Origin: Anaerolineae bacterium
Lineage (GTDB): Bacteria; Chloroflexota; Anaerolineae; Aggregatilineales; Aggregatilineaceae
Direction: 5' to 3'
Assembly: GCA_016930015.1 (NCBI GenBank)
Contig: JAFGHR010000010.1
Location: forward strand, 1 to 64,000
Length of the DNA: 64,000 nucleotides
Below, one piece after another: positions 7,024 through 48,918 of the stretch; position 1 is the first letter of the stretch; each line of letters opens with the position of its first letter. The position numbers were made by a program, and so were the translations under genes. The notes beneath the pieces were generated by a model. The model was not told the DNA's origin. It worked only from the letters and a program-made list of their open reading frames with translations, and made no database searches.

Positions 7024-8490
7024 TTAGCGGCGGCGGCCTTTTTTCGTGCGGCGTCTTTGATCGGATTTGCGATCCCGGCGCTGGGCGCGGCCTGGGTCCA
7101 TCTTGACCAGTCTGGGCTGGAACTCGGCCAGAGCCACGACCAGGTCGGACTGTTCGGCCATCACCTGGCGAATGTCTTTGTACGCGCCGGGCGCTTCGTC
7201 CAACCCGGCGGACAGCAGTTCGATTCCCTGTTCGCGCAGCCCGCGCTTGACGATATCCCAGTCAAATGTCCGGAACGCCTGTTTGCGGCTCATGCGGCGG
7301 CCTGCGCCGTGCGCCGCGCTGGAGAGTGATTCCGCGTTGCCGAGGCCGCGCACCACAAAACCCGGCGCGCTCATGCTGCCGGGGATCACGCCCAGGGCAT
7401 CTTTGCCCGCCGGAGTCGCGCCCTTACGATGCACGATCACGTCCTGCCCATCGACGGTTTCTTTCCACGCGTAGTTGTGATGGTTCTCGATGCCGCCCAG
7501 CACCGGCACGCGCAGCGCGTCCACGATCTGGCGGTGGATCACGGCGTGATTCGCGCTGGCATAGTGACCGGCCAGCGTCATCGCGGCCCAATATTCCGCG
7601 CCGGATGCGGCGTCGAGGTCCAGCCACGCCAGGTGTTTGAAATCTTTGGGCAGGGTGGGGCGCTGCTGCATGGCGACGTGGGTGTAGTGGTCGGCCATTT
7701 CCAGCCCAAAACGACGGCTCCCGCTGTGGCTGAGTACGGCGAGGTACGTGCCGGGCGGGATCGTGCCCTGCGGCGAGTCGATCTGTGTGTGGACGTTAAG
7801 CGCGCCGAACTCGACAAAGTGATTGCCGGAGCCGCTGGTGCCGAGCTGGTGCCACGCCGTATCCTTGAACTGGCGGGCGACCGGGTGTTCATCCCATGCG
7901 GGATCGTCCATCACGGGGTGATCGCGGGGTACGTCCCAGGTGTGACCGGGGCCAAAACGGGTATTTTCTTCGAGCACGGAACGGAAACGCTCGCGTTTCT
8001 GGTCCAGCACGTGCGGCGAGGCGTTGAACACCGTCATACGCATCCGGCAGGCAATGTCTACGCCGACCGCATACGGGATCACGCTGTTTGACGTGGCGAG
8101 CACACCGCCAATCGGCAGGCCGTACCCCTGGTGCGCATCGGGCATCAGGGCGCCGCGTACAGCCACCGGCAGACGGACCGCGCGTTTCATCTGGTCCAGC
8201 GCGCCAACCTCGATTCCCTCCGCGCCCCAGACGCGGTACGGCGCGGCAGTGGTCAGATCATAACTGCTGGTTCGCTCGCGGTGATGTTCATAGGCGGTCA
8301 GGGCCGCCGCGACAGCCCCGTACACTGGGTCGTCGAGAAAGTCGCCGGGCGCATTGAGCACGTCCGCCAGGTCGCTCAGGATCGCGTCGTCGTCCAACCC
8401 GTCAGCCTGGGCCGCATGCGCCGCCTGGAGCGCCAGTCCAACCGTTTTGCCGGGGCGGTAGCCGAGTTTTATAATGGTGTTGCCGTCCAT
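7024..8490 (-). CDS. rtcB: RtcB-family RNA ligase
   Basis: About 488 residues. RtcB joins RNA ends carrying a 2',3'-cyclic phosphate or 3'-phosphate to a 5'-OH, through a guanylylated histidine. The manganese/GTP-binding residues are in place: GVDIACRMRM (Asp and Cys), GSGNHFVEFG, LSHSGSRRFG, NHHNYAWKE, and AAHGAGRRMSR, which carries the histidine that becomes guanylylated. The translation could begin upstream at 8532, but a GGAGG site at 8500-8504, nine bases before the ATG at 8490, fixes that start. No archease or RNA cyclase gene is adjacent. The C-terminal tail is rich in Arg/Lys (RRDRKSDQRRRTKKGRRR), perhaps for RNA binding. Confidence 0.93.
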   Translation of the reverse strand: MDGNTIIKLGYRPGKTVGLALQAAHAAQADGLDDDAILSDLADVLNAPGDFLDDPVYGAVAAALTAYEHHRERTSSYDLTTAAPYRVWGAEGIEVGALDQMKRAVRLPVAVRGALMPDAHQGYGLPIGGVLATSNSVIPYAVGVDIACRMRMTVFNASPHVLDQKRERFRSVLEENTRFGPGHTWDVPRDHPVMDDPAWDEHPVARQFKDTAWHQLGTSGSGNHFVEFGALNVHTQIDSPQGTIPPGTYLAVLSHSGSRRFGLEMADHYTHVAMQQRPTLPKDFKHLAWLDLDAASGAEYWAAMTLAGHYASANHAVIHRQIVDALRVPVLGGIENHHNYAWKETVDGQDVIVHRKGATPAGKDALGVIPGSMSAPGFVVRGLGNAESLSSAAHGAGRRMSRKQAFRTFDWDIVKRGLREQGIELLSAGLDEAPGAYKDIRQVMAEQSDLVVALAEFQPRLVKMDPGRAQRRDRKSDQRRRTKKGRRR

Positions 8491-11322: not shown

Positions 11323-12213
11323 TTACGCCAGGTGCGCGTCGATCCAGGCCACAATATCCGCGATGACCGCGTGTTGTTCCGGTTCGTTATGAATCTCGTG
11401 GTACAGCCCATCATAAAATTTCACAGTGTGATCCGGCGAGCCGCACTGCTCTTGAACGCGTTTCGCGCCTTCGGGCAGAGTTAGCGGATCGTCACCGCCG
11501 TGCAAGGTCAGGTAGGGCAGGCACAGCGTGGGCAGCAGGCCGGAGCATATCTCGGCGGCGCATGCCATCTCGGCCAGCGTCCTGACCGGGATCGGACCGT
11601 GATACACCAGCGGATCGGTTTTGTAGGCGTCCACGACGGCGGGATCGCGGCTGATGCCATCGGCCAGCGAAATCGGGATCAGGCGTGCGCCCCGCAGCAG
11701 ACGCCCCAACACGTTTAACAGCGGCACGGCCAGCGGGTGTATACCGGACAGGCGCAGCGCCGTGCCGGTCGTGATCAGCCCGGCCAGTTGGTCTTGATGC
11801 TGGTCCGCGTACTGCTGCTGGTGCGCATCTTGCTGCGCGTGCGCATCTTGCTGCGCGTGCGCGTACAGCAGCGCGATCAGCGATCCCATGCTGTGACCGT
11901 AGATAAACACCGGGAGATCACCATACACGGCCCGCACCATGTCAACGTAGGCGCCCAGGTCATGCACGTATGTGTCAAAGCGGCGCACGATCACGCGCGG
12001 CCCCTCTGAGCGCCCGTGTCCCCGGTGATCAAAGGCACAGACCGCGTATCCGTGCTCGACCAGGGCGCGGGCCACGTGTTCGTAACGCGTGCTGTGTTCG
12101 GCGTATCCGTGCGCCACGATCACGACGGCGCGCGGTGTGCCGTCCGGCTGCCATGCCTGGGTAAAGAGGGATGTCTGCCCGACTCCTATTATCGATCCGG
12201 TTGTGTGCTGCAT
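11323..12213 (-). CDS. Alpha/beta hydrolase, monoacylglycerol lipase-like
   Basis: 296 residues of the serine-hydrolase lysophospholipase/monoglyceride lipase group. The oxyanion region VAHGYAEHSTRYEH, the cap-preceding DHRGHGRSEG motif, the nucleophile elbow GHSMGS (about residue 106), the acid in HGGDDPLT and the histidine in YHEIHNE complete the triad. It has no signal peptide, so it is cytosolic. Right after the nucleophile helix is an insert of Ala/His/Gln/Asp repeats (AHAQQDAHAQQDAHQQQ), encoded by an imperfect 18-bp tandem repeat at 11812-11868. Substrate unknown; monoacylglycerols or lysophospholipids are the family norm. Confidence 0.88.
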   Translation of the reverse strand: MQHTTGSIIGVGQTSLFTQAWQPDGTPRAVVIVAHGYAEHSTRYEHVARALVEHGYAVCAFDHRGHGRSEGPRVIVRRFDTYVHDLGAYVDMVRAVYGDLPVFIYGHSMGSLIALLYAHAQQDAHAQQDAHQQQYADQHQDQLAGLITTGTALRLSGIHPLAVPLLNVLGRLLRGARLIPISLADGISRDPAVVDAYKTDPLVYHGPIPVRTLAEMACAAEICSGLLPTLCLPYLTLHGGDDPLTLPEGAKRVQEQCGSPDHTVKFYDGLYHEIHNEPEQHAVIADIVAWIDAHLA

Positions 12214-12346: not shown

Positions 12347-15300
12347 ATGAAGCAGTCACATATGCCCCGCTTAACGCTGATCGCGGCGATGGCAGCGGCG
12401 CTGCTGGTTTTCTGGAGTCCGGCGGTGGCGCCGGAGCTAGCGGCGGCACAAGACCCGGACGGGCACAGCCCGGACGCGATCGAAGCGCTGGCGCTGCGCG
12501 TTCATTTCCAGGATCAGCGCATCGACAACTATACGTTCTGGATCGGGGGCAACATGGGCGATCCGCGTGCCGCGCCGTCACGTGCGCCGGTCGGCGAGGT
12601 GCTCGACGGTTGGGAACTGCGCGGCCTGGGTGATAATGCCAGCCGGACCGCTGACGACCTGCGGCGGCCCACGCTGTTGAATTTCTGGGCGTCGTGGTGC
12701 CCGCCGTGTATTACCGAGTTTCCGCACCTGATGGACCTGGCGCTGAATCCCGACGCGCACGCGTTCGACGTGTTGTTTGTGAACATGTCCGACGACGAAG
12801 ACAACGCGCTAGCGTTTGTATCGCGGCTGTCCCCTGATCTTGACGTGGTGATCGATGACCTGAACCGGTTATCCAACCGTGTGAACGTGGAAGCGATCCC
12901 GACCAGTGTGTTACTCGACGCGGACGGCACGGTGTTGATCGTGCACGCGGGCCTGATGACGGCGACGGTATCCGCCTTTTTTGACGCGGTAGCCGCTCAG
13001 CCGGGCGTGGGCACATTCGACGCCGCAGTCTATGCTGATGTATCGCCCACCGCCGAACTGCTGCCGGTCGAAGCGGCCAGCGCAAGCCCCATCGAGCCGG
13101 GGACGCGGGTGCTGGGCACGCTCACACGAACCGATTTTCAGCACGTCTACCGGTTCGAAGGCCGGGCCGGTGACCAGGTGGCGATCACACTGGCAGCGGA
13201 TTCGTCCGAGCTTGATCCCTACGTGGTGCTGATGACGGCGGACGGCGAGCGCATCGCGGAAAACGACGATTTTGAGCTGGGACCGGACGCGCATGTCGAA
13301 GCCGCGCTGCCCGCCGATGGGACATACCTGATCGTGGCCACGCGGTTTTTGGAAGCGGACGGGTTTTCGACCGGCGACTACAGCCTTTCGCTGTCCAAAG
13401 GCGGCGGGCTGGCGGAGGGTGTACTCACGGTTGGCGCGGCGGTGATGGGGCGCGTCAGCGGTAACAATCCGCGCGAGTTGTATTCGCTGGCGGGGCAGGC
13501 GGGCGACGTGATCACGCTGCGTGTGACTCACGAGCCGGGCGACGTGGCGCTGCGCATCGAGATCAAAGACCCGCACCTGGACCGGCTGGCCGTCAGCGAG
13601 GAATCGGTAAACGGCGAAGCGGTCATCGAAGCGCTCGAACTGCCCGACGATGGTAATTATATGCTGGTCGTGATGCGTCCCCGCTCGCGCGATCAGGTGA
13701 ACCTGGATTACACGCTCACAATCGAAGCTGCCGAGCCAGTCGCCGCCGAAAATGGTGAGTTAGAAACAGCCATGATCGCGCCAACGGCTGTTTTGCAGCC
13801 GACGACTGTCCCGCAAGCGACCGCTTCTCCGCAAGCGACCGCTTCCCCGGAGCCGACGATTACCCCGGACGGCGTGCTGGTGCCCGGCGCGGCGGTGTCC
13901 GGCACCCTGGACGATGCCAATTATGACGATCGCTGGACGTTCGAGGGCGCTATGGGTGATGTGATCAGCCTGGCGATGACGCGAACGGTCGAAGGCCCCG
14001 GCGAGTTGGACGGCTTTTTGCGGCTCCTGGGGCCGGACGGCAGCACATTGGTTGAGGTTGATGACGTTGACGACAGCGTGATGCCTTCGCTTACCGGGTA
14101 TGAACTGCCTGCCGACGGCGTGTATACGGTGGTGGCTACACGCCTTGATTTTGCGGATGGGCTGTCGTCAGGCACGTACAGCCTGCTGCTGACGCGTGAT
14201 ACGGGTGACGCGGATCAGGCTGCTGCTGTGGAGATTCGCTGGCTGAGCGACGACACGCCCCGGCCTGTGATGCGGCGGATCGCCTACAACGAACGGCTGA
14301 TCGGCGTGATCTCAGACATCAATGTGGATGATTGGTACGTGTTCCAGGGGCGGGGCGGTGACATGATCACGATCCGCATGGCGGCGGATAACAGCGACCT
14401 GGACGCTTTTTTGCTGCTGACCGATGCTGAAGGGCGTGAATTGGCGCGCAGTGATGATACCGACGGAATCGGGGCCGCCGGAATTCTCGATTATGTGCTG
14501 CCGGATGATGCATCCTACCTGATCCGTGCGACACGCTACGGGTTTCAGAACGGCCCGTCCAGCGGTGATTATACGCTGGTGATCGAAACGGATGCCGCGC
14601 CCGTCCAACCGGCGGACCTGGATCAGCCGGTGGTGCCGCTGGTGGTTGGCGAACCTGCCGCCGGTCAACTGGACCCGGCCCATCCCGGTGATGTGTACAC
14701 GTTTTCCGGGCGTGCCGGTGACGTGATCACGGTCAGCGCCCGGCAGCGCAGCGGAGACCTGGACCCGGCGCTGTCGCTGCGTGGTCCGGATGGCATAAAG
14801 ATCGCCTTTAACCGGGATTGGGCTGCAACCGCCGAAGCGCGTCTTTCACGGGTTATGCTGCCCGCGGATGGCGAGTACACGCTGGACGTGATGCTCGACG
14901 ATCACAGCACGTCCGGCAGGTACGCAGTCCTGCTGATGGCGGAAGCCGCGCCCGATGTGCCGCCCGGTGTGACGGCCAGCGTATCACCGGCTGGTGACCT
15001 GGCCGTTGAAGTGTTCCTGCTGTGGGATTCGCCCGCCGACCTCGATCTGAGCGTGCGCGCGCCGGACGGTCCGCCCGTGAACTGGCAGAATCCGTCGAGC
15101 GCCACGAACGGCCAGCTTGTTTCCAGCGCCAACGATAACTGTACCACCAGTCTGAACGTGGTCGAGCGGGTCATCTGGTCGAAGGAAATCGCCGCGCCGG
15201 GCCTGTACACAATCGACGTACACTACGCCTTTGACTGTGCGGGAACAGGCGGCCCGGTCCCGTTTACGCTGGTCGTGGCGGCGGACGGTGTGATCGTCGA

Positions 15301-15385
15301 TGTGTTCGAGGCCCAACTCGCCCGCACCGGGGATCGTTATGTGACCGTGCTCGACTACCGGCCCGGAAGGTATAATGCGCCCTGA
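12347..15385 (+). CDS. Exported thioredoxin-like protein with PPC repeats and a YfaP-like C-terminus
   Basis: 1012 residues. A signal peptide (residues 1-35, ending LAAAQD) is followed by a TlpA/thioredoxin-like domain with the redox motif WASWCPPC (C118, C121) and a cis-Pro in AIPTSV. After this come about five beta-sandwich domains of the bacterial pre-peptidase C-terminal (PPC) type, each ending in the pattern LPADGTYLIVATR or a variant (about 245-345, 352-460, 508-620, 640-760, 772-870). A Pro/Thr/Gln linker (PQATASPQATASPEPT) lies between the second and third. The C-terminal 110 residues (VFLLWDSPADLDLSVRAPDG onward) resemble the YfaP/DUF2135 fold. It is probably a secreted surface redox protein. 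A GGAG site precedes the ATG. Confidence 0.85.
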   Translation: MKQSHMPRLTLIAAMAAALLVFWSPAVAPELAAAQDPDGHSPDAIEALALRVHFQDQRIDNYTFWIGGNMGDPRAAPSRAPVGEVLDGWELRGLGDNASRTADDLRRPTLLNFWASWCPPCITEFPHLMDLALNPDAHAFDVLFVNMSDDEDNALAFVSRLSPDLDVVIDDLNRLSNRVNVEAIPTSVLLDADGTVLIVHAGLMTATVSAFFDAVAAQPGVGTFDAAVYADVSPTAELLPVEAASASPIEPGTRVLGTLTRTDFQHVYRFEGRAGDQVAITLAADSSELDPYVVLMTADGERIAENDDFELGPDAHVEAALPADGTYLIVATRFLEADGFSTGDYSLSLSKGGGLAEGVLTVGAAVMGRVSGNNPRELYSLAGQAGDVITLRVTHEPGDVALRIEIKDPHLDRLAVSEESVNGEAVIEALELPDDGNYMLVVMRPRSRDQVNLDYTLTIEAAEPVAAENGELETAMIAPTAVLQPTTVPQATASPQATASPEPTITPDGVLVPGAAVSGTLDDANYDDRWTFEGAMGDVISLAMTRTVEGPGELDGFLRLLGPDGSTLVEVDDVDDSVMPSLTGYELPADGVYTVVATRLDFADGLSSGTYSLLLTRDTGDADQAAAVEIRWLSDDTPRPVMRRIAYNERLIGVISDINVDDWYVFQGRGGDMITIRMAADNSDLDAFLLLTDAEGRELARSDDTDGIGAAGILDYVLPDDASYLIRATRYGFQNGPSSGDYTLVIETDAAPVQPADLDQPVVPLVVGEPAAGQLDPAHPGDVYTFSGRAGDVITVSARQRSGDLDPALSLRGPDGIKIAFNRDWAATAEARLSRVMLPADGEYTLDVMLDDHSTSGRYAVLLMAEAAPDVPPGVTASVSPAGDLAVEVFLLWDSPADLDLSVRAPDGPPVNWQNPSSATNGQLVSSANDNCTTSLNVVERVIWSKEIAAPGLYTIDVHYAFDCAGTGGPVPFTLVVAADGVIVDVFEAQLARTGDRYVTVLDYRPGRYNAP

Positions 15386-15646
15386 AAACAGCCTTGTCGA
15401 AAAGGTAAAGCGATTTTTAAAAGAGGAGGGTCCAGTTTTAATCCAGTGTTTTTAAAATGGCGTTAGGGCCCGTGCAGCGGCTGGCATTTGCTGCGCTGCC
15501 GGTCCTGAAACAGCAGGCGGAAATAAGCTTGCTGCCGGGTGACCTGACCGGAAACATACGTTATAATATTAAGTGTGAGTTCACCTATACATTAGGTGGG
15601 TTCGTCCAGGCGTTAGGTGTTTGTCCAGACAAATCTGAGATGCATT
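15386..15646 (+). promoter_or_regulatory. Upstream region of the HNH gene with promoter and direct repeats
   Basis: The gap of about 260 bases carries GTGACC (15539-15544), a 17-base spacer and a perfect TATAAT (15562-15567). Between the predicted start and the gene are two similar blocks, TTAGGTGGGTTCGTCCAG and TTAGGTGTTTGTCCAG (about 15592-15630), which could be a tandem operator. Nothing else is seen. Confidence 0.5.
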
Positions 15647-16183
15647 ATGATCGAGGGGCATGTTCTACTTCTCAATGGGGGCACCTGGGAACCGCTAACG
15701 GTGGTCAGTGTCCCGCGTGCTATCAACCTTTTGTTGGCCGGAAAAGCCGTAGTGGTTGAGCAAACCGACCGGTTTTTGCGCACCGTTCGTGACAGGTTCC
15801 CGGTTCCGTCCGTGATCGCGCTGCGCCGGTACATCAATGTGCCGCGCCGACATGCGCACTGGAGCCGCCAGGGCGTGCTGGCCCGTGATGATTACACCTG
15901 CATTTACTGCGGGTCCAAAGTGGGTGATGTTGTGCGGGGCAAGGTCCTCACACGCCGTGACCTGACGGTCGATCACATCCTGCCGGTGTCGCGCCGGGGG
16001 AAAAATACGTGGTCAAATACGGCGTGCGCCTGCTTTGCCTGCAATCATCGCAAGGGCAACCGCCTGCCCGGTGAAGCCGGGATGCGGCTGCGCTGGGAAC
16101 CCAAAACGCCGCGCACCAGTTACCTGGTGATCGAGATGGGCAGCGGCCCGGATACGTGGAAGCGTTACATCGAAATCGGGTGA
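15647..16183 (+). CDS. HNH endonuclease family protein
   Basis: 178 residues. The N-terminal module (VLLLNGGTWEPLTVVSVPRA) is the one usually found in stand-alone bacterial HNH proteins. The nuclease core has the first cysteine pair CIYC, the catalytic histidine in LTVDHILPVSRRG, the Asn in NTACACFACN and the second cysteine pair, so a structural zinc and the beta-beta-alpha metal site are both intact. The ATG at 15647 starts the family-like N-terminus; the longer frame from 15617 adds residues that do not fit. The cellular role of this widespread family is not established. No methylase or phage gene is adjacent. Confidence 0.9.
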   Translation: MIEGHVLLLNGGTWEPLTVVSVPRAINLLLAGKAVVVEQTDRFLRTVRDRFPVPSVIALRRYINVPRRHAHWSRQGVLARDDYTCIYCGSKVGDVVRGKVLTRRDLTVDHILPVSRRGKNTWSNTACACFACNHRKGNRLPGEAGMRLRWEPKTPRTSYLVIEMGSGPDTWKRYIEIG

Positions 16184-16681: not shown

Positions 16682-16818
16682 GATAGATTCACTTTCGTAT
16701 GGTACGCGAATACGGACAGATACCAGTATACCTCACCGGGGCGGCATTTCTCGGCGGCTGGGGGCCGAAGTATAATACACAAACACTGGCGCGGCAGGAT
16801 CGACAGGAGGACCATGTG

Positions 16819-17664
16819 ATGAAACGATTAATGACAGTGCTGGCGGTGATCGCCGGTGTGATCATGGTGGTGGCAGGTGTGGCCGTGCCCCGGTTGGCCC
16901 TGGCCCAGGATGGCGACGGGGCGCATGCCGCAGAAAGTGCAGCGGGCGCAGAAAGTGCAGCGGGCGCAGAAGGGGCGGCTGAGGGCGGCGATAACCCGGC
17001 GGCGTGGGGCGCCGCGCTGTACGCAACCTACTGCCAGGCGTGCCATGGCCCGCAAGGCGAGTCGATCGGCAGCGGCCCGGCATTTTCGGCTGTCACCTAC
17101 GATCCGGACACCGCCCACGACGTGATCGCACACGGCGTAGATTCCGATCCGGCGGACGCGATCGCCATGCCCGCTTACGGTGAGGCGGCGGGTGGTGTGC
17201 TGGATGATGAGCAGATCGAGCAGATCACCGCGTACATGGCGACATGGGGCACAGGTGAAACGCCTCCGCTGCCCGAACCGAATCTCGAACACCCGGAACC
17301 CGGCGCGGTTATTTACGCCAAAACGTGTTACGGCTGTCACGGCGACCAGGGCGCGGGTTACGATACGCCCACGTTCCCCGCATTCGAGCCGGACGATCAT
17401 ACACGGCGCGTAGTACAGGACGGTCACGAGAGCATCACTGTCCCGGCGTTTGGCGTGGAGCAGGGCGGCCCGTTGAGCGATAGTGATATCGACGCGCTGG
17501 ATGTATACTTGGCGTCGTGGCAGGCGGAAGGCGATCACGACGCAGCAGACGAGGAAGACTCCGGCAGCGCGCAGGGATTAAACGCCGTGCTCGTGCTGGT
17601 GGGCGTTATCGCCATTTTGACGGTCGGCGGTGTGTATATGATGCGGTCACGGAGCAGCGAATAA
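16819..17664 (+). CDS. Membrane-anchored diheme cytochrome c
   Basis: 281 residues. An N-terminal signal peptide (MKRLMTVLAVIAG onward, to about residue 30) is followed by a low-complexity stretch of GAESAA repeats encoded by an 18-bp tandem repeat. Then come two cytochrome c domains with CQACH (C72, C75, H76) and CYGCH (C170, C173, H174), each with a downstream Met-containing segment that could give the sixth ligand. A C-terminal transmembrane helix (VLVLVGVIAILTVGGVYMM) ends in RSRSSE. It would face the outside of the membrane and carry electrons. AGGAGG at 16805-16810 sets the ATG at 16819. Confidence 0.9.
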   Translation: MKRLMTVLAVIAGVIMVVAGVAVPRLALAQDGDGAHAAESAAGAESAAGAEGAAEGGDNPAAWGAALYATYCQACHGPQGESIGSGPAFSAVTYDPDTAHDVIAHGVDSDPADAIAMPAYGEAAGGVLDDEQIEQITAYMATWGTGETPPLPEPNLEHPEPGAVIYAKTCYGCHGDQGAGYDTPTFPAFEPDDHTRRVVQDGHESITVPAFGVEQGGPLSDSDIDALDVYLASWQAEGDHDAADEEDSGSAQGLNAVLVLVGVIAILTVGGVYMMRSRSSE

Positions 17665-19011: not shown

Positions 19012-19557
19012 ATGACGGATATTCAGTGGGAAAAGAACAGCGTTTTAGCAAAACGTGTGAAGGATCATCGCCGGGGACGTTGGAAGTTCCTGGTCGCCGG
19101 GGTGATCATTCTGGGCGCGGTGGCCTATCTCCTGTTTTATAGCACGGCCATCGGCGCGCGGTATTACGTCACCGTGGATGACCTGGTGAACGATCCCGGC
19201 ATGCTGGGCAAACAGGCGCGTGTATCGGGCGCGGTGGACGGTGATCCCGTGTTTTTCCCTGAGCGTAACGAACTCCAGTTTGTGATCGCCAATATCCCCA
19301 ACGATAACGACTCGATCAAGGAGCAGGGCGGGCTGGCGAAAGTGTTGTATACGGCAGTGAACAGTCCAGACACCACGCGGCTTAGGGTGGTGGCCCACGA
19401 TCAAGAGATTCCCGACCTGTTGCAGCACGAAGCCCAGGCGATTTTGACCGGCAAACTGGTGCAGGAAAACGGCGACTACGTGTTTTATGCGTCCGAGATC
19501 ACGCTGAAATGCCCGACCCGGTATGAGGAAGACGTGCCGGATCAGGTGGTTCAATAG
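19012..19557 (+). CDS. ccmE: Heme chaperone CcmE, CXXXY variant
   Basis: 181 residues. CcmE covalently holds heme on the outer face of the membrane and passes it to the CcmF/CcmH ligase. One N-terminal transmembrane helix (WKFLVAGVIILGAVAYLLFY) is followed by the OB-fold typical of the family (ARVSGAV, RLRVVAHDQEIPDLLQ, AQAILTGKL). At the heme-binding site the classical HXXXY is replaced by CPTRY (C167, Y171), aligned exactly as in K-H-D-E-N-Y of classical proteins. CXXXY CcmE proteins are known from archaea and Desulfovibrio. It lies some 7 kb before ccmF, with a P460-like cytochrome gene directly downstream. Confidence 0.92.
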   Translation: MTDIQWEKNSVLAKRVKDHRRGRWKFLVAGVIILGAVAYLLFYSTAIGARYYVTVDDLVNDPGMLGKQARVSGAVDGDPVFFPERNELQFVIANIPNDNDSIKEQGGLAKVLYTAVNSPDTTRLRVVAHDQEIPDLLQHEAQAILTGKLVQENGDYVFYASEITLKCPTRYEEDVPDQVVQ

Positions 19558-19719: not shown

Positions 19720-19807
19720 CAGGTGCACAATGCTTTTCTAACGACAGCTCCTACAAAACTATCACAGCCGGTGGCGTGGAGCTGTTGTTCACCGTTTCCT
19801 GCACCTG
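19720..19807 (+). promoter_or_regulatory. Structured 5' leader of the first P460-like gene
   Basis: Two nested perfect 8-bp stems: outer CAGGTGCA (19720-19727) with TGCACCTG (19800-19807), and inner ACAGCTCC (19744-19751) with GGAGCTGT (19778-19785). Together they fold the first 88 bases of the predicted transcript. The ribosome site AGAGGAG follows about 18 bases later. No known riboswitch class was recognised. Confidence 0.6.
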
Positions 19808-19839
19808 ATAAAGTTTTACCAGCTAGAGGAGATAGTGGT

Positions 19840-21105
19840 ATGCGTCGACTATTACCCGTTTTTGCTGTTCTTATTGTGGGGCTGATGCTGGCGATAGTTG
19901 CGCTGGTTGGGGCAGAAGAAACAGACCAACCCGGCGTTATTATTGCCCAGGATGGCCCCGGACTCCCTGACGCAAACGGCGCGTCTGTGTTGGATTACGT
20001 GATCAACCAGAATCCGTATGTGGAATGGAAAACCTGGCCCGCCGACCGTTGGACCGATTTTTCAGGTGTTATTCAGAGCGGCGCGCCGCACGGTGAAACG
20101 GTGCGCATTTTTGTAAATGATATCGCGTTAGATGCCGCTGCCGCCGAGTTTGACGGCGTTCTCCCCTACGGCAGCATTGTGGTCAAAGAAAACTATGGTG
20201 GCACGGTTGACGAACCGGGCGACGTGATGGCGTTGACGATCATGTACAAGGTCGAAGGTTACAACCCGGACGCGGGTGACTGGTTCTGGATCAAGGCTAA
20301 TGGTGACGGCAGCGCGATCGATGCTGAAGGCATGGTCGAAGGCTGCATCGGCTGTCACAGCCAGGACGGCAACGCTGACTTTATGCTGCGTTATGCGTTT
20401 GGCGAAGAACCGGCCACGTATTACGGTGATCCGCTGCCTGAAGCTGACGGCGCGGCGGTGATCGACTACATGCTGAATACCAGCTCCTACACGGAGTGGG
20501 GATCGTGGCCCGCCACCGAGGACGATGATTTCAGCGGTTACCTTGCCAGTGATGCTCCGCACGGCGAAACAGTACGCATTTTTGTGAACGATCGCGCGCT
20601 GGATGCGCTGGACTACACGCATTTTGACGGCGTTCTTCCCTACGGCAGCATCGTGGTCAAAGAAAACTACGGCGGCACGGTTGACGAACCGGGCGACGTG
20701 GTGGCGCTGACGATCATGTACAAGGTCGAAGGTTACAACCCGGACGCGGGCGACTGGTTCTGGATCAAGGCTAGTGGGGACGGCGGCACGGTCGATGCTG
20801 AAGGTATGGTCGAGGGCTGCATCGGCTGCCACAGCCAGGACGGCAATTCCGATTACCTGCTGCGTTATGATCTGCCCGAAGCCGCCGGTATGATGGGCGA
20901 CGAGGGCATGGGCGCCGGGGACATGGCGATCGATGCCGAAGCGCTGATCAATGAGCGCTGCACCCAGTGCCACACGCGCGATCGGGTTGATGCGGCGGAA
21001 TATGATGCTGCCACCTGGCAGGCGACGATTGAGCGTATGGTCAGCAAGGGCGCGGTGCTCAACGAGGAAGAAATCGCCGCGCTGGTCGAATACCTCAGCC
21101 AGTAG
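19840..21105 (+). CDS. Triheme protein with two cytochrome-P460-like domains
   Basis: 421 residues. A signal peptide (MRRLLPVFAVLIVGLML) precedes two copies of a cytochrome-P460-like domain (about 45-190 and 195-345), each ending in CIGCHSQDGN. A C-terminal domain with CTQCH and a helical tail (EEIAALVEYLSQ) follows, giving three c-type heme sites. Inside each P460-like domain are APHGETVRIFVND, GSIVVKENYGGTVDEPGD and DWFWIK. Classical P460 proteins oxidise hydroxylamine using a Lys-heme cross-link; whether that happens here cannot be read from the sequence. The second halves of the two domains are nearly identical, pointing to recent internal duplication. AGAGGAG precedes the ATG. The neighbouring ccm genes would attach its hemes. 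Confidence 0.82.
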   Translation: MRRLLPVFAVLIVGLMLAIVALVGAEETDQPGVIIAQDGPGLPDANGASVLDYVINQNPYVEWKTWPADRWTDFSGVIQSGAPHGETVRIFVNDIALDAAAAEFDGVLPYGSIVVKENYGGTVDEPGDVMALTIMYKVEGYNPDAGDWFWIKANGDGSAIDAEGMVEGCIGCHSQDGNADFMLRYAFGEEPATYYGDPLPEADGAAVIDYMLNTSSYTEWGSWPATEDDDFSGYLASDAPHGETVRIFVNDRALDALDYTHFDGVLPYGSIVVKENYGGTVDEPGDVVALTIMYKVEGYNPDAGDWFWIKASGDGGTVDAEGMVEGCIGCHSQDGNSDYLLRYDLPEAAGMMGDEGMGAGDMAIDAEALINERCTQCHTRDRVDAAEYDAATWQATIERMVSKGAVLNEEEIAALVEYLSQ

Positions 21106-25094: not shown

Positions 25095-25153
25095 CGGGAA
25101 ACCCGCGTAGGGGGTTAAAGCAGCAGCGTATAACTACATAAGGGGATGTGTCT

Positions 25154-26386
25154 ATGCATAACAAACCGTTTGCGCTTGCCGTTTTGGGAACCAGCCTTTT
25201 GCTGGCCGCGCTAGTGCTGCTTGGGGATCGATCACCCATGCCGCCGGTCGGCGCACAGGAACCCGATCTGCCGCCGCCCACAGCGGCGGGCGTGTGGGAC
25301 TATATCACCACCCAGAATCCGTACACGGCCTGGGGCACATGGCCCGCCGACCGCTGGACGGATTTTGAAGGCGTGTTTGAGAGTGCCATGCCGTATTCCA
25401 CCACGGTACGCCTGTTCGTGAACGCTATCGCACTTGACGCCGCACACGTTGACAGCACGCTGCCCGCCGGGAGTATGCTCGTCCTGGAAAGTTACGGCGG
25501 CCCGGTGGACGCGCCCGGCGATATGGCGTCGATCTCGGTTATGTTCAAGGTGCCGGGTTATGATCCCGCCAACGGGGATTGGTTCTGGCTGCAAACCAGC
25601 CCGGATGGCGCGGACGTGGCGTTTGAAGGCCGCGAACCATTGTGTTCGGGCTGCCACAGCCAGCCCGGTCACGTCGATAGGATGCTGCGCTACGCGTTTG
25701 GTGACGAACCGGCGGTGACGTCCGGGCTGCCGCTGCCGGTGGCCGAGGCTTCGACTGTGCTGGATTACGTGCTGAACGTCGATCCGTACACGACGTGGGC
25801 CACGTGGCCCGAAAACGAAACAAACGGCTTCCTGGCGGGCGTGGGCGAGGCACATGGTGAAACGGTGCGCATCACTGTTCACGAACGGGCGCAGCGTGCC
25901 GCCGCGCGGGACTCGTTCGACGGCGAGTTTCCCAACGGCAGCCTGATCGTCATGGAAAATTACGCCGGGATCGTGGATGAGCCGGGCGACCTGGTCGCGC
26001 TGGCGATCATGTATAAAGTCGATGGTTTTGATCCCGCTGGCGGCGATTGGCTGTGGATCACGACTGACATTGACGAGGGCGAACACACCATCGGCGCGGC
26101 AGGTGCGCTTGAGGGGTGTTTGAGATGTCACGGTCGGGGGGATAATGTCGATTTCCTGCTGCGTTATGATGCGCTGCAAGCCGCCCCGGCGCGTGCGATC
26201 GACGCCGAAGCCCTGGTGAATCAAGAGTGTGCGCTGTGCCATCCCATGACCACCGTAGACACCGCCCCCTACACGACCGTCGAGGAGTGGGGGCCGGTCA
26301 TCGACCGCCAGATCGGTTATGGCGCTAACCTGGATGACGAGGAGCGCGACGCGGTCGTCGAATACCTGGCGAACCGCTCCCAGTAA
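25154..26386 (+). CDS. Second triheme protein with two P460-like domains
   Basis: 410 residues, a paralogue of the protein at 19840 with the same order: signal peptide (MHNKPFALAVLGTSLLLAAL), two cytochrome-P460-like domains, and a C-terminal heme domain. Heme motifs are CSGCH, CLRCH and CALCH. Shared landmarks include ITTQNPYTAWGTWPADRW, AHGETVRITVHERAQ and GIVDEPGDLVALAIMYK. Unlike its paralogue the two domains have diverged from each other, so the internal duplication is older here. It stands 70 bases ahead of ccmF and may be cotranscribed with the maturation genes. The ATG at 25154 follows AAGGGG; a GTG at 25148 is the alternative. Confidence 0.82.
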   Translation: MHNKPFALAVLGTSLLLAALVLLGDRSPMPPVGAQEPDLPPPTAAGVWDYITTQNPYTAWGTWPADRWTDFEGVFESAMPYSTTVRLFVNAIALDAAHVDSTLPAGSMLVLESYGGPVDAPGDMASISVMFKVPGYDPANGDWFWLQTSPDGADVAFEGREPLCSGCHSQPGHVDRMLRYAFGDEPAVTSGLPLPVAEASTVLDYVLNVDPYTTWATWPENETNGFLAGVGEAHGETVRITVHERAQRAAARDSFDGEFPNGSLIVMENYAGIVDEPGDLVALAIMYKVDGFDPAGGDWLWITTDIDEGEHTIGAAGALEGCLRCHGRGDNVDFLLRYDALQAAPARAIDAEALVNQECALCHPMTTVDTAPYTTVEEWGPVIDRQIGYGANLDDEERDAVVEYLANRSQ

Positions 26387-26458: not shown

Positions 26459-28582
26459 TTGATCGCAGAACTCGGCATTATTACAACCGGCTTGGCATTT
26501 TTGGCGGCAGGCTACGCGTTGATCGCGGCGCTGGCGGGCGTGTACCTGCGACAGAATAGACTGGTGCTCAGTGCGCGGAACGCCGCGCTGATGACGTTCC
26601 CGCTGCTGTCGGTGGCGTGCACGGTGATGGTATATGTGCTGCTCAACCACGAATACAGCATTGCTTACGTCTGGCAGACGACCGACAACGGCACCCCCGC
26701 GTTTTACCGGTATACGGCGCTGTGGGGCAGCCAGGCCGGATCACTGTTGTTCTGGTCGTGGCTGCTCAGCGCATTTGGTGCGGCGGCGTTGGTCCTCAAC
26801 TGGCAGTCGGAGCGGCGGCTGATGCCCTACGTGATCGTCGTGCTGATGGCGACACTGGGTTTCTTTTTGATCCTGAACGTGTTCATCGAAAACCCGTTTG
26901 AACGTTACTGGCTCAGTCCCGGCGATTCGGCCCCGGAAAAGGCGCTGTTCCAGCCGTCCGGTGATGCCCAGTTGTTCGAACCCATCGACGGCGCGGGGCT
27001 GAACCCGCTGCTGCGTCACCTGGGCATGGTCTTTCACCCGCCTATGTTATACCTGGGCTTCGTGGGCTTCACGATCCCGTTTGCGTTCGCGTTCGCGGCG
27101 CTGGCAACTGGGCGCCTGGGCGCGGACTGGATTCGGGCGACGCGCAACTGGGCGCTGATCGCGTGGCTGTTTTTGAGCCTGGGCTTACTGCTGGGCGGTC
27201 GCTGGGCGTATGACGTGCTCGGCTGGGGCGGTTATTGGGGCTGGGACCCGGTCGAAAACGCGGCGCTGCTGCCCTGGCTGACCGGTACGGCGTTTTTGCA
27301 CAGCGCCGTCGTGCAGGAAAAACGCGGTATGCTCAAGTTCTGGAACCTGCTGTTGATCGTGCTGACGTTTGTGCTGGTCGTGCTGGGGACGTTCGCCACG
27401 CGCAGCGGTGTTGTGAGCAGCGTACACAGCTTCGCCGAGTCGGAGATCGGCCTGCCGATGTTCACCTTTATGGGTGTTTCGACGCTGGCGAGCGTGCTGC
27501 TGCTGGTGTGGCGCCAGGAGCGCGGCGATCTGCGCGGCGCGGACGAACTCGACTCGCTGTTCAGTAAAGAAAGCCTGTTTTTGCTGAATAACTGGATGTT
27601 CCTGGGGCTGACGGTGGTTGTCCTGTGGGGCACCTGGGCCGAAGCGATCACGACTATCGCGGTTGACCTGGGCCTGCGTGACACGGTGATCAACCTGGGG
27701 CCGGACTATTTCCCGCCGGTCGTGCGCCCGTTTTTGATCGCGCTGTACATCCTGATGGGGATCGCGCCGCTGGCCGCGTGGCGGCGGTCCACGGCGGAAC
27801 GTTTGGGCCGGGCTGTCGTGATCCCGCTGGCGCTGGCGTTGATCCTGGTGGCCGTGTTGGGCGCGACCGGCACCGGCAGCCTGTGGGCGCTGGTCGGTTA
27901 TGGGTTGGTGGCGTTCGCCGGGCTGGCAACGATCACCGAAATCTGGAAAGGCATGTCGGCGCGTCATCGCCGGGGCGAACACTGGGGAGCCGCGTTTAGC
28001 CACCTCGTCGCGCGTGATCGCCGCCGCTATGGGGGGTACTTCATCCACCTGGGGATCGTGGTGCTGGGGCTGGGCGTGATCGGCAGCACATCGTTTCAGC
28101 AGATCACGCAGCAAACGCTAAACGTGGGCGAGCGGCTGGAACTGGGGCCGTACACCATGCGGTACGATGGATTGTACGGCGCTCAAGCCGAGGATGGCCG
28201 CCAGATGATGATCGCCAAAGCCACCGTGTACCGGGGCGATAACGAAGTGGCGCAGATTCGCCCGCGCCGTGATACGTTTTTCACGACGAATCCCACGACC
28301 GGCCAGCTTGAGCCGTCCACCAACATGAGTATTCCCGGCGCTCACAGCACCCTGGCTAACGATTTTTACGCGATTATCACGTTTTGGGAAGGGAATCGCG
28401 TGACGTTCCGCGTCTACCTGAACCCGCTCATTAACTTTGTGTGGCTGGGCGGATTCATCCTGATCGCCGGGACGCTGGTGGCACTGTGGCCGTCGCGGCG
28501 GTCGCCGGTCGCAGCGCGGGTATCGGTTCCGACGGGGCCCCCTGGCACGCCAGGGGCACGCGGCGCGCAGGCGGGAGATTGA
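26459..28582 (+). CDS. ccmF: Cytochrome c heme lyase subunit CcmF
   Basis: 707 residues, multi-span membrane protein that takes heme from CcmE and, with CcmH, attaches it to the CXXCH of apocytochromes. The heme-handling WWD motif is readable as LGWGGYWGWDPVENAALLPW (about residue 255), with flanking conserved segments PPMLYLGFVGF and LPWLTGTAFLHS. About 14 hydrophobic helices plus a periplasmic loop near the C-terminus are visible. It probably starts with TTG at 26459, since GGGAGG lies about 9 bases upstream and no ATG fits the family's N-terminus. It opens the run ccmF, ccmH, ccmG, ccmI-like. Confidence 0.95.
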   Translation: MIAELGIITTGLAFLAAGYALIAALAGVYLRQNRLVLSARNAALMTFPLLSVACTVMVYVLLNHEYSIAYVWQTTDNGTPAFYRYTALWGSQAGSLLFWSWLLSAFGAAALVLNWQSERRLMPYVIVVLMATLGFFLILNVFIENPFERYWLSPGDSAPEKALFQPSGDAQLFEPIDGAGLNPLLRHLGMVFHPPMLYLGFVGFTIPFAFAFAALATGRLGADWIRATRNWALIAWLFLSLGLLLGGRWAYDVLGWGGYWGWDPVENAALLPWLTGTAFLHSAVVQEKRGMLKFWNLLLIVLTFVLVVLGTFATRSGVVSSVHSFAESEIGLPMFTFMGVSTLASVLLLVWRQERGDLRGADELDSLFSKESLFLLNNWMFLGLTVVVLWGTWAEAITTIAVDLGLRDTVINLGPDYFPPVVRPFLIALYILMGIAPLAAWRRSTAERLGRAVVIPLALALILVAVLGATGTGSLWALVGYGLVAFAGLATITEIWKGMSARHRRGEHWGAAFSHLVARDRRRYGGYFIHLGIVVLGLGVIGSTSFQQITQQTLNVGERLELGPYTMRYDGLYGAQAEDGRQMMIAKATVYRGDNEVAQIRPRRDTFFTTNPTTGQLEPSTNMSIPGAHSTLANDFYAIITFWEGNRVTFRVYLNPLINFVWLGGFILIAGTLVALWPSRRSPVAARVSVPTGPPGTPGARGAQAGD

Positions 28583-28587
28583 AGACG

Positions 28588-29157
28588 ATGAATCGAACGG
28601 TGAAACGCTGCCAACGAATCATACTATGGGCTGCGCTGGCGAGCGTGATTGTGCTGGCGGGCGGGATCGGGCTGCGCGTGGATCGCGCGGCGGCGCAGGG
28701 CGGCCAGGAACAACTCCCGCCGGGCGTAACGTGGGACGAAGTGAACGCCATCGCGCACAAAATGTACTGTGACGTGTGCGAAGGCGTGCCGCTGGACGAA
28801 TGCGAAAGTATCGCCTGCCACCGCTGGCGCGAGGAGATCGCGCGCCTGATCAGCGAAGGTAAAACCGAAGACGAGATCATCGACTATTTTGTGACACGCT
28901 ACGGCACGGATGTCGCCGCGCTGCCGCGTGACAGTCAGGACCGGTTTCTGGCGTTTGCGATCCCGGCGGGACTGGTAGCGCTGCTGGGCGTGATCGGTGC
29001 GGTGCAGGTGTGGCGGATGCGCCAGCATGGACACCACGCCGGGCAGGCGGTGAGCCGTACACGCGGATTCACGCACCAGCGCCCCGTACCGGATGACGTC
29101 GATCCCGACACCCTTGACCGGCTGCTGGGCGAATTGGAGGGAATGATACATGAGTGA
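28588..29157 (+). CDS. ccmH: CcmH-type cytochrome c maturation protein
   Basis: 189 residues. A signal/anchor helix (IILWAALASVIVLAGGIGL) is followed by the CcmH thioredoxin-reducing domain: MYCDVCEGVPLDECES with the redox CXXC, then HRWREEIARLISEGKTEDEI and YFVTRYGTDV, matching the three-helix CcmH/CycL fold. A second membrane helix (AIPAGLVALLGVIGAVQVW) follows. CcmH keeps the apocytochrome cysteines reduced for heme ligation. It carries an extra pair of cysteines (DECESIAC) near the active site. It begins 5 bases after ccmF and overlaps ccmG by 8 bases. Confidence 0.88.
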   Translation: MNRTVKRCQRIILWAALASVIVLAGGIGLRVDRAAAQGGQEQLPPGVTWDEVNAIAHKMYCDVCEGVPLDECESIACHRWREEIARLISEGKTEDEIIDYFVTRYGTDVAALPRDSQDRFLAFAIPAGLVALLGVIGAVQVWRMRQHGHHAGQAVSRTRGFTHQRPVPDDVDPDTLDRLLGELEGMIHE

Positions 29158-29788
29158 GCAGCCCGAACACGACCGGCCCGAAGCGGAAGCCGATCTGCCG
29201 CGCTGGCTGCACGACATGACCGCGACCGGCGAGGATCACGCGTCGGTTCAGCGGCGTGTCTCGACGTTTGGGATCGTGGCGGTGCTGTTGATCGCGGCGC
29301 TGCTGGGCGTGATCGGCTACGCGCTGTACCAGCGTAACCAGTCCCAGCCCACCGAAGGCCCCGCCCCTGATTTCAGCGTGACGGCGTTTGATCTGGCGCG
29401 GCTGGACCGTCCCGGCGAGCGGATCACGCTCGACAGCCTCAAGGGGCAGGCGGTGGTGATCAATTTCTGGGCGAGTTACTGTGCGCCGTGCCGCGATGAA
29501 GCGCCCATGCTCGAACGCGTCTGGCGCGATTACCGTGACCAGGGTGTAGTGATGCTGGGCATCAACACCGACGATATCGAAAGTGACGCGCTGGCGTACA
29601 TGGACGAGTACGATATCACGTTTCCGAACGCGCCGGACCAGGGCGGGCGTGTCGAGGATGATTACCGCATCACGGGTATTCCGGAGACGTTTGTGATCGA
29701 TCGGGACGGCGAGATCGTGCGGCACTTCATCGCGACACCGCGAGAAAGCGACCTGCGCACCGTGATCGAACGGGCGCTGGATAGTTAG
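29150..29788 (+). CDS. ccmG: Thiol-disulfide oxidoreductase CcmG/TlpA-like
   Basis: 212 residues. A cytosolic N-terminal tail with many acidic residues leads to one membrane anchor (FGIVAVLLIAALLGVIGYAL) and a periplasm-side thioredoxin fold: APDFSVTAFD, VVINFWASYCAPC with the active CAPC, the central GINTDDIESDALAY, and the cis-Pro segment TGIPETFVIDRDG. It supplies reducing power to CcmH or directly to apocytochrome. The usual WxxC tryptophan directly before the first Cys is Tyr. It overlaps the end of ccmH by 8 bases, so the two are translationally linked. Confidence 0.9.
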   Translation: MSEQPEHDRPEAEADLPRWLHDMTATGEDHASVQRRVSTFGIVAVLLIAALLGVIGYALYQRNQSQPTEGPAPDFSVTAFDLARLDRPGERITLDSLKGQAVVINFWASYCAPCRDEAPMLERVWRDYRDQGVVMLGINTDDIESDALAYMDEYDITFPNAPDQGGRVEDDYRITGIPETFVIDRDGEIVRHFIATPRESDLRTVIERALDS

Positions 29789-30248: not shown

Positions 30249-30355
30249 GGGGTAACGAGATTGCCGCGTGGGTCGGAGCCTATTACAATAAATGCCTTAT
30301 GTGGGATTGGGGACGTTGGGCGAGCGCCTAACACGTGATAAACCGGAATAAACGT

Positions 30356-31876: not shown

Positions 31877-32609
31877 GGTGGCGGCCCGGCCCATGATCGA
31901 AGCGCAAAAACTGGTCAAAATTTTCGGCGTAAATCCCGTGCTGCGCGGCCTTGATCTCGACGTGCAGCGCGGCGAATTTCTCGCTTTGCTGGGGCCGAAC
32001 GGCTCCGGCAAGACCACGTTATTACGCATTCTGGCGGCGCTCGCACGCCCGACAAGCGGCACCGTTCGGATCGGCGGGTGGGAACTGCCCGGCGAGGCGG
32101 ATTATGTGCGGGCGCAGCTTGGCGTCGTGAGCCATATGCCGCTGCTGTATGACACGTTAACCGCCGAAGAAAACCTGTTGTTTTTCGCCCGGCTGTATGA
32201 CCTGCCGCGCGGCGAACGCCGTGATCGGGTGCATACCATGCTGCGGCGGGTGGGTCTGCACCGGCGGGCGCGGGATGTCGTGCGCACCTTCAGCCGGGGC
32301 ATGGTCCAGCGGTTGGCGATTGCGCGCGCCGTGCTGCACGATCCGGCGGTGCTGCTGCTGGATGAGCCGTACACCGGCCTGGATCAAGACGCCGCCGCGC
32401 TGCTCGATGACCTGCTGGGAGAAGTCGCCGCCGCCGGGCGTACCGTGATCATGACCACGCACGATCTGCGGCGCGGGCACGCGCTGGCCGACCGGATCGC
32501 GATCCTCAGCCGGGGCACGATCGTGTATGACGTGTCGTGTCACGCGGTCGCCGCCGCCGATCTGCCGGGGCTGTATGCCGACGTAACAGGAGCCGTTACG
32601 ACACGATGA
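31866..32609 (+). CDS. ccmA: Heme exporter ATPase CcmA
   Basis: 247 residues, an ABC transporter ATPase. Walker A is GPNGSGKTTLL, the signature motif is FSRGMVQRLAIARA, Walker B is VLLLDEPYTGLD, and the H-loop is MTTHD. With CcmB and CcmC it releases holo-CcmE by ATP hydrolysis. The ATG at 31866 follows CGGAG; a later in-frame ATG (31893) is possible. It overlaps the lipoprotein gene by 11 bases and overlaps ccmB by an ATGA. Confidence 0.93.
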   Translation: MIDEVAARPMIEAQKLVKIFGVNPVLRGLDLDVQRGEFLALLGPNGSGKTTLLRILAALARPTSGTVRIGGWELPGEADYVRAQLGVVSHMPLLYDTLTAEENLLFFARLYDLPRGERRDRVHTMLRRVGLHRRARDVVRTFSRGMVQRLAIARAVLHDPAVLLLDEPYTGLDQDAAALLDDLLGEVAAAGRTVIMTTHDLRRGHALADRIAILSRGTIVYDVSCHAVAAADLPGLYADVTGAVTTR

Positions 32610-48874: not shown

Positions 48875-48918
48875 TTTGACCGGCGCGGTAAACTCGCTAT
48901 TTCTTGAAGGGCAAGCTG

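Follow-up and report, generated by a model that had tools for sequence, protein, structure and literature searches.

We found that one gene of Anaerolineae bacterium, an uncultured member of the Chloroflexota, encodes a thioredoxin domain, five PPC beta-sandwiches and a further end domain in a single chain. The fusion is real, is conserved in two related families, and is a new combination of known kinds of domain. We suggest, with moderate confidence, that the product (the window protein) is an exported thiol-disulfide oxidoreductase of the TlpA/ResA type, in which the PPC and end domains would serve as a stalk and as an attachment or recognition module. The gene lies in a stretch of 64,000 nucleotides that was analysed as a whole (the window). 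The features used below are, by position in the window:

11323..12213, minus strand: alpha/beta hydrolase (Hydrolase_4), divergent neighbour; less than 100 bp from the gene in five relatives
12347-15385, plus strand: gene of the window protein, ATG to stop, 1012 amino acids
12347..12451, plus strand: signal peptide, residues 1-35, with a hydrophobic core and AAAQ at its end
12452..12652, plus strand: N-terminal extension of the thioredoxin domain, residues 36-102, with the motif H.Q..R....T.W.GG..G (17-row alignment)
12653..12997, plus strand: thioredoxin-fold domain (Redoxin/DsbE/ResA-like), residues 103-217
12698..12709, plus strand: CPPC active-site motif, residues 118-121, read from the translation and aligned in relatives
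13091..13393, plus strand: PPC repeat 1, residues 249-349 (repeat profile, Pfam; Z 13.4 to the collagenase PPC domain 5sv5)
13424..13723, plus strand: PPC repeat 2, residues 360-459, divergent (repeat profile; beta-sandwich in the model)
13733..13876, plus strand: Thr/Pro/Ala-rich linker between the two halves, residues 463-510 (translation; pLDDT below 50 at 464-507)
13880..14191, plus strand: PPC repeat 3, residues 512-615 (repeat profile, Pfam)
14279..14584, plus strand: PPC repeat 4, residues 645-746 (repeat profile, Pfam; Z 14.2 to the ColG collagen-binding domain (CBD) 2o8o)
14642..14935, plus strand: PPC repeat 5, residues 766-863 (repeat profile, Pfam; Z 14.8, 1.6 A over 95 residues to the ColG CBD 1nqj)
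14984..15364, plus strand: end domain, residues 880-1006, a beta-sandwich with the YfaP-like motif LLWDSPADLDLSVRAPDG; nearest solved fold by VIA-align, TerD
15140..15142, plus strand: Cys932 of the end domain, a cysteine in 12/12 aligned end domains
15236..15238, plus strand: Cys964 of the end domain, the second such column, also 12/12
15617..16183, plus strand: HNH endonuclease, downstream neighbour; within 1 kb downstream in nine family loci
16699..17664, plus strand: neighbour with two cytochrome c domains; within 1.6 kb in five relatives
19012..19557, plus strand: ccmE, first cytochrome c maturation gene of the window; less than 4 kb from the gene in seven relatives
26459-28582: CcmF, ccm cluster
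28441-29157: CcmH, ccm cluster
29150..29788, plus strand: thioredoxin-family gene of the ccm cluster, CcmG by its place; Pfam matches to AhpC-TSA/Redoxin, not CcmG
32537-33349: CcmB, ccm cluster

The preliminary description had proposed an exported chain with a CPPC thioredoxin domain at its front, and both points held. A signal peptide was recognised by eye in the translation, with a hydropathy peak at residues 6-29. About 977 residues follow it, and they form six domains besides the thioredoxin head. No lipobox cysteine follows the signal peptide, there being no cysteine ahead of the CPPC, and 19-residue hydropathy revealed no C-terminal hydrophobic anchor. The value rose above 1.6 only in the signal peptide, at residue 194 of the thioredoxin domain and, to a slight extent, at 969-971, which lie in end-domain strands. 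The translation has four cysteines only (118, 121, 932 and 964). A sigma-70 scan yielded three promoter-like sites where shuffled sequences averaged 0.9; none of them lies in the gap that separates the start codon from the divergent hydrolase gene. The full-length model, made from an alignment of seven rows, had a mean pLDDT of 63 and a pTM of 0.30, at which the relative placement of the domains is not interpretable; its thioredoxin part was poor (pLDDT mostly below 55) and unusable.

The head was identified by matches in Pfam, NCBIfam and the PDB. Redoxin, AhpC-TSA and Thioredoxin_8 matches fall inside residues 100-206, and the best PDB sequence matches are of the DsbE/ResA type (3gl3, 1.7e-14; ResA, 4.7e-11). 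Every NCBIfam match fell short of its curated cut-off (dsbE, 62 of 123.15 bits; ResA, 60.6 of 170; TlpA, 39.7 of 230), and we therefore do not file the head as DsbE, ResA or TlpA. The motif residues of the N-terminal extension were invariant in a 13-row alignment. CxxC was present in 16 of 17 aligned heads, among which two pairs of rows are near-identical. In the head of genome G010 the first cysteine of the active site has been lost (FWTSRYSYC). The window protein shares a CxxC head and an export signal with TlpA, ResA and CcmG (DsbE), its closest sequence matches, but differs from them in its six extra domains as well as in its scores under the curated cut-offs. TlpA, ResA and CcmG are single-domain proteins, either membrane-tethered or lipoproteins.

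The expectation of about five PPC beta-sandwiches was borne out. The whole protein scored 83.3 bits against PPC (PF04151), well above the gathering cut-off of 25.9, with three stretches matched individually. When the five repeats and their relatives were combined into a profile, it located five copies at the residues listed above, each at 4.2e-29 or better; these E-values are flattered because the seed repeats are included in their own profile, which also gave one chance match in the thioredoxin part (0.26). Taken singly, only repeat 5 exceeded the Pfam cut-off (27.7). Repeats 1, 3 and 4 fell under it (23.7, 22.8 and 15.6, the last with E 0.03), and repeat 2 alone had no Pfam match. The assignment of repeats 1-4 depends on the whole-protein score, the repeat profile and comparison of folds. 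In the model, repeats 1, 4 and 5 reached Z 13-15 to solved collagen-binding/PPC domains, and repeat 3 was absent among the best 50 fold matches listed. Repeat 2 shares its order of eight strands with the other repeats; its best fold matches were a GOLD domain (Z 11.9) and subtilase C-terminal domains (10.4-10.6).

PPC modules are otherwise best known from secreted proteases. In ColG- and ColH-type peptidases the PPC (collagen-binding) domains end a protease, whereas the five of the window protein come after a redox head, and no peptidase domain was matched in it by Pfam. The PPC/CBD domains of some collagenases bind collagen (PMC6168687). The genome of the window holds 15 PF04151 matches over 13 ORFs, the window protein included. 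One protein of this genome, of 708 amino acids, alternates PPC with an end domain of the same type as that of the window protein.

The preliminary description called the C-terminal end a different, YfaP-like fold. The difference in fold stands; the likeness to YfaP is supported in part, by a core motif but not by the family profile. A profile comparison with E. coli YfaP gave a probability of 79.6 and E 1.5e-05 over 66 columns, and the two share a W...ADLDL.V..PDG core and a later strand of the Y.I.V.Y type. E. coli YfaP as translated has no cysteine, in contrast to the two invariant cysteines of the end domains here. For the window protein's own end domain there was no Pfam match of any kind. 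DUF2135 (PF09906) matched neither this end domain nor those of four relatives, and its profile found nothing in the whole genome at E up to 1; on these profile searches we do not assign the end domain to DUF2135/YfaP.

Modelled separately, the end domain was confident (pLDDT 85). The top fold by VIA-align was TerD (Z 9.3, 3.7 A, 124 residues, 15% identity), a tentative likeness, and a shared fold shows no function. TerD is a cytoplasmic family. With Foldseek the first row was MmpS5 (0.0048), TerD 3ibz followed at E 0.019, and no row reached E 0.001. The C-terminal jelly-rolls of the subtilases KP-43 (1wmd), SubHal (5fax) and Tk-SP (3afg) also align with the end domain (26-28% identity over 76-82 residues), but their Z of 5.6-6.1 is only within the range of common arrangements, and the window protein contains no protease. 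One of the four relatives' end domains searched, that of G053, a genome of the sister family, had a PPC match under the cut-off (18.5 bits, E 0.0039), and a distant kinship of the end domain with PPC is possible on this sequence match.

Within the window's family, 12 of 18 genomes have the thioredoxin-PPC fusion among the matches listed, as do 7 of 8 genomes of a sister family. The family match list reaches E ~5e-21, and the weakest best match of any genome counted as having the fusion was 5e-59. Identity over the matching stretches within the family is 44-65% (a second G006 copy has 39%), which indicates that the architecture is more than chance. In samples of genomes from the class and the phylum, which may miss unrelated thioredoxin-PPC fusions or matches broken at a domain border, no family besides these two had it. 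From the window's family the class sample apparently drew two genomes, and from the sister family four. The phylum sample can have added no genome of either family, since sister-family matches lie far beyond 1e-25; its result, 0 of 300 other genomes with the fusion, therefore bears on other families only. Scanning genome contigs with the complete window protein turned up no relative; phyla outside the window's own were reached by two short-peptide-pattern scans of genome contigs. No paper joining PPC and thioredoxin was among those listed from the literature searched, which mostly excludes subscription journals, and the Chloroflexi papers among the matches listed contained no PPC terms. By the preliminary description, a fusion that proved common and already described would have counted against it; in the genomes sampled it is confined to two families, and the papers listed include no description of it.

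The architecture of the family is plastic. The two halves are fused in one frame in six genomes, the window's included, two of which are also represented by MAG records (L061 and L063). In L061, L062 and L063 the linker between the halves is much shorter than in the window protein. Five relatives (G002, G003, G008, G014 and G009) have thioredoxin and PPC without the end domain, and some relatives have thioredoxin and two PPCs only. The G009 protein stops soon after the start of a possible fifth PPC (27 residues) and may be the product of a truncated gene. The C-terminal half occurs without thioredoxin in G013 and G015 of the window's family and in G053, in each case with an apparent signal peptide of its own (by eye). 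Copies of PPC ranged from 2 to 8 in 20 proteins scanned, some of them cut by contig ends. The separate halves would fit an artefact of assembly or gene calling that fused two genes, but this is contradicted by the one-frame fusion in six genomes and by the MAG records of two of them, and we regard it as next to impossible.

In the reading that we prefer, the CPPC head is predicted to exchange disulfides with proteins outside the membrane, and the five PPC beta-sandwiches with the end domain would form the stalk and the attachment or recognition module and would tie the head to the cell envelope or its matrix. We infer the attachment role of the PPC repeats; surface location and adhesion, both putative, are plausible. 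TlpA, ResA and CcmG relatives are reductants. From such knowledge of the family, the direction would be reducing rather than oxidising, with electrons probably coming from a CcdA-like membrane protein. Clients could be c-type cytochromes or other secreted proteins, at which the linkage to ccm genes hints.

Among relatives' loci with flanking sequence, ccmE lies less than 4 kb away in 7 of 10, and in 6 of the 8 that have a thioredoxin head; ccmF is linked too in some. No ccmE was nearby in G009, G010 (whose flank is only 2.45 kb on one side) or G013. This linkage to ccmE, sometimes ccmF, and the gene with two cytochrome c domains, seen in relatives 45-65% identical, would fit a role in cytochrome c maturation as a second reductant that, alongside CcmG, serves apocytochromes on the outer side of the membrane, as would the DsbE/ResA-type head. 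However, the flanks of the five sister-family loci read contain no ccmE, the head scores well under the curated DsbE cut-off, and genes for MscL, GNAT and HNH proteins are carried along with the gene as well, so that the linkage may be plain gene-order conservation. The ccm cluster also has its own thioredoxin-family gene, from which the head is set apart by a 97/97 split (21-row tree, with long outgroup branches). We therefore rejected the window protein as the CcmG of this cluster; a role in cytochrome maturation may be redundant, and we consider a second reductant improbable. Another reading is that the protein mainly has a structural or adhesive role outside the cell, the PPC and end-domain half doing the work and the head being a folding aid or a relic. 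The apparently exported C-terminal halves, the variable number of PPC copies, the many PPC matches of the genome with its 708-residue PPC/end-domain protein, and the lost catalytic cysteine of G010 all fit this, and that loss together with the two family members without thioredoxin suggests that some lineages can do without the redox head. Yet five relatives keep the head without an end domain and both cysteines are retained in 16 of 17 heads, which suggests selection on the head, and we think a mainly structural role rather unlikely. We also considered a redox switch, in which the head would reduce or form a Cys932-Cys964 disulfide and so toggle binding by the end domain or the adjacent PPC with the outside redox state; its target could be the end domain of its own chain or separate end-domain proteins in the same cell. 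This reading loses weight because either part occurs without the other: G013 and G015 have the end domain but no thioredoxin, and five genomes have the reverse. We hold it to be very doubtful.

If the head of the proposed exported oxidoreductase is active, this lineage uses a stalk of several domains to carry a general thiol oxidoreductase outside the membrane. The envelope of the window's group is presumably monoderm, and such a protein would be a simple means of keeping redox chemistry within the envelope or matrix of a cell with no periplasm. The natural half-proteins (head with two PPCs, stalk and end, head without its first cysteine) make the division of labour directly testable. To our knowledge, Etrx1 and Etrx2 of Streptococcus pneumoniae have no PPC domains. 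S. pneumoniae has surface thioredoxin-fold proteins that belong to CcdA pathways, and Etrx1 and Etrx2 are thioredoxin-fold lipoproteins working outside the membrane (PMC3914529); the window protein has no lipobox cysteine. Elsewhere in the genome (locus L006), an ORF resembling CcdA plus thioredoxin was seen by eye.

We found that the window protein carries a thioredoxin domain (the head), five PPC (PF04151) repeats and a different end domain in one chain. Its features are as follows.

12347-15385, + strand: ORF of the window protein, 1012 aa
Residues 1-35: putative signal peptide (read by eye and from hydropathy)
Residues 103-217: thioredoxin-fold domain, with the CPPC active site at 118-121
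Residues 249-349 and 360-459: PPC repeats 1 and 2
Residues 463-510: Thr/Pro/Ala-rich linker
Residues 512-615, 645-746 and 766-863: PPC repeats 3, 4 and 5
Residues 880-1006: end domain, unlike the preceding repeats

The head matched Redoxin in Pfam (3.7e-12), together with Thioredoxin_8 and AhpC-TSA. NCBIfam gave dsbE (5e-17) and ResA (1.7e-16), each short of its curated cut-off, and a PDB sequence search found solved DsbE/ResA proteins (best 1.7e-14). These matches bear out the CPPC thioredoxin domain that the preliminary description had placed at the front. In the alignment, an N-terminal extension bearing the motif H.Q..R....T.W.GG..G is common to heads of the window's own family (f1) and of the sister family (f8), and part of it is kept in the stand-alone heads of the order. 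One f1 genome, G010 (locus L052, 2451-5105), has lost the first active-site cysteine of the head (FWTSRYSYC) and kept the remaining chain.

The PPC domains claimed earlier, about five, were likewise located, with a whole-chain Pfam score of 83.3 bits. Submitted singly to Pfam, repeat 5 exceeded the PPC cut-off, repeats 1, 3 and 4 fell under it, and repeat 2 had no match. The full-length model (7-row alignment, mean pLDDT 63, pTM 0.30) is usable for the beta-sandwich domains only; its first PDB row in Foldseek was the ColG tandem collagen-binding domain (CBD) 5iku (E 1.9e-11). On the predicted model, VIA-align 2 paired repeat 5 with the ColG CBD 1nqj (Z 14.8, 1.6 A, 95 residues), repeat 4 with 2o8o (Z 14.2), repeat 1 with the collagenase PPC domain 5sv5 (Z 13.4) and repeat 2 with GOLD and subtilase C-terminal domains (Z 10-12); repeat 3 was absent from the 50 rows listed.

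The end domain had no Pfam match in the window protein, and those of four relatives were not over any Pfam cut-off; the end domain of G053 (f8) scored 18.5 bits against PPC (cut-off 25.9). Modelled alone from three sequences (pLDDT 85, pTM 0.85), it gave no Foldseek row at E 0.001 or better, MmpS5 being first. A second look with VIA-align put TerD first (3ibz, Z 9.3, 3.7 A, 124 aligned) and subtilase C-terminal domains far lower (Z 5.6-6.1, 26-28% identity). Compared with E. coli YfaP, a 12-row profile of the domain gave probability 79.6 (E 1.5e-05, 66 columns). The profile of DUF2135, the family of YfaP, had no match in the end domains of the window protein and four relatives or in the whole genome. 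The earlier term "YfaP-like" is thus fair for describing a motif, and not as DUF2135 membership.

The window protein has four cysteines (118, 121, 932 and 964). The columns of Cys932 and Cys964 hold cysteine in 12/12 aligned end domains, in rows chosen by hand (the window protein, nine relatives and two copies from a 708-aa protein of the same genome, G000). That protein (contig C102, 86241-88205; locus L003, 232-2355, - strand) alternates PPC with end domains of the same kind, as PPC-end-PPC-end-PPC judging by where the matches fall. In several relatives, ~700-aa frames match PPC 5 and the end domain. From these two observations, members of this order seem to pair the end domain regularly with PPC.

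We found the thioredoxin-PPC fusion in 12/18 f1 genomes (E 1e-40, ORFs read). Six (G000, G001, G004, G007, G010, G011) run from head through end domain in one frame. In G006, two contigs each stop inside a fusion gene, one with the head and the other with the end domain; their overlap is not quite identical, so they are not simply two halves of one gene. G006 has an additional 704-aa copy (39% identity). Five genomes lack the end domain (two PPCs in G002, G003, G008 and G014; four in G009). G013 and G015 have only the PPC-PPC-PPC-end half, with its own putative signal peptide. Four (G005, G012, G016, G017) gave no match, two of them being 73 and 80% complete.

Seven of the eight f8 genomes carry thioredoxin-PPC (G024, G030, G035, G040, G045, G049, G057). 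Five of these carriers have 737-755-aa ORFs matching the window protein to about residue 750, with four PPCs in both ORFs scanned for repeats (n=2). G045 has eight PPCs, the G057 gene reaches a contig end, and the eighth genome, G053, has the C-terminal half only. The fusion was absent among the matches listed for the 35 other genomes of this search, at least five of which (G021, G022, G028, G044, G056) have the head alone in a 214-323-aa frame; G033 has two heads side by side.

Among the matches listed for a class sample (n=396), five were contiguous through PPC 1 (G000 and four f8 genomes); in a phylum sample (n=301, E 1e-25) only G000 matched. Two family peptide patterns, scanned against one genome for each of 84,980 species, hit seven loci; the scan misses members, since it did not recover the record of the window itself or further genomes with the fusion. 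Six are in MAGs labelled Chloroflexi, Anaerolineae, Thermoflexus or Anaerolinea. The labels of these relatives suggest that G000 belongs to the Chloroflexota. The seventh is at the end of a Planctomycetota-labelled contig, L065, whose last 966 bases (7413-8378) share 99.4% identity with L066, a MAG contig labelled Anaerolinea; the remainder does not match L066. Judged from its sequence, L065 is a chimeric or mislabelled contig.

In the window, the fusion gene follows a divergent alpha/beta hydrolase gene and precedes genes for an HNH endonuclease, a dinitrogenase-cofactor-type protein, a two-cytochrome-c-domain protein, GNAT, MscL, the cytochrome c maturation (ccm) gene ccmE and a P460-type cytochrome, then ccmF, ccmH, a thioredoxin-family gene (taken as ccmG by its place), an ABC ATPase and ccmB. 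Among ten other f1 loci with kilobases of flank (G001, G002, G003, G007, G008, G009, G010, G013, G014, G015; one flank short in G007, 1.6 kb, and G010, 2.45 kb), ccmE lies within 4 kb in seven and is absent in G009, G010 and G013. The contigs of G004, G006 and G011 stop too soon to be counted. For head-carrying loci the figure is 6/8. G010 has no ccm gene in its available flank (2.45 kb on one side), and none of twelve neighbours was found in G013. The same HNH gene follows the head-plus-two-PPC gene within 400 bp in G002, G003, G008 and G014, and in G015 the C-terminal half is 224 bp from ccmE. The available flank of five f8 loci read lacked ccmE.

Domain make-up, conservation and linkage are established for the window protein. 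As do its closest characterised relatives, the head would act as a reductant, with electrons coming from a CcdA-like protein, and the PPC modules would serve to space it away or to attach it. On contig C62 of G000 (locus L006, 1465-3222, - strand), a 586-aa ORF has, by eye, a CcdA/DsbD-type membrane part and a thioredoxin domain, making it a candidate electron source. For thioredoxins that work outside the membrane, the pneumococcal Etrx proteins offer a precedent (PMC3914529). Because several collagenases bind collagen through their PPC domains (PMC6168687), binding is a possible function of the repeats here; the collagenase finding has no bearing on these sequences themselves.

The ccm cluster has a thioredoxin of its own, which argues against a role specific to cytochromes. 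The heads of f1, f8 and the stand-alone proteins of the order together split at 97/97 from the thioredoxins of the ccm cluster and the CcdA-like ORF, in a 21-row tree with mostly unsettled inner order and long outgroup branches. An indispensable redox role is opposed by the G010 head and by the headless relatives. Half-proteins often occupy the locus that holds the fusion elsewhere. We infer that the two halves were ancestrally fused, or lay as an adjacent pair, and that one or the other was later lost.

The thioredoxin-PPC combination was not found in our paper searches. Each part falls in or near a known type, and the combination is kept in two families.

Other genes of the window include two between ccmE and ccmF (19723-21105 and 25148-26386), whose products each match cytochrome P460 in two stretches and end in weak matches to c-type cytochromes. 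A 513-aa ORF (30335-31876) with no Pfam match at 0.001 lies between the CcmG-like gene and the ABC/CcmB genes, and 48904-55482 encodes a sensor histidine kinase of 2192 aa that is rich in PAS and GAF domains.
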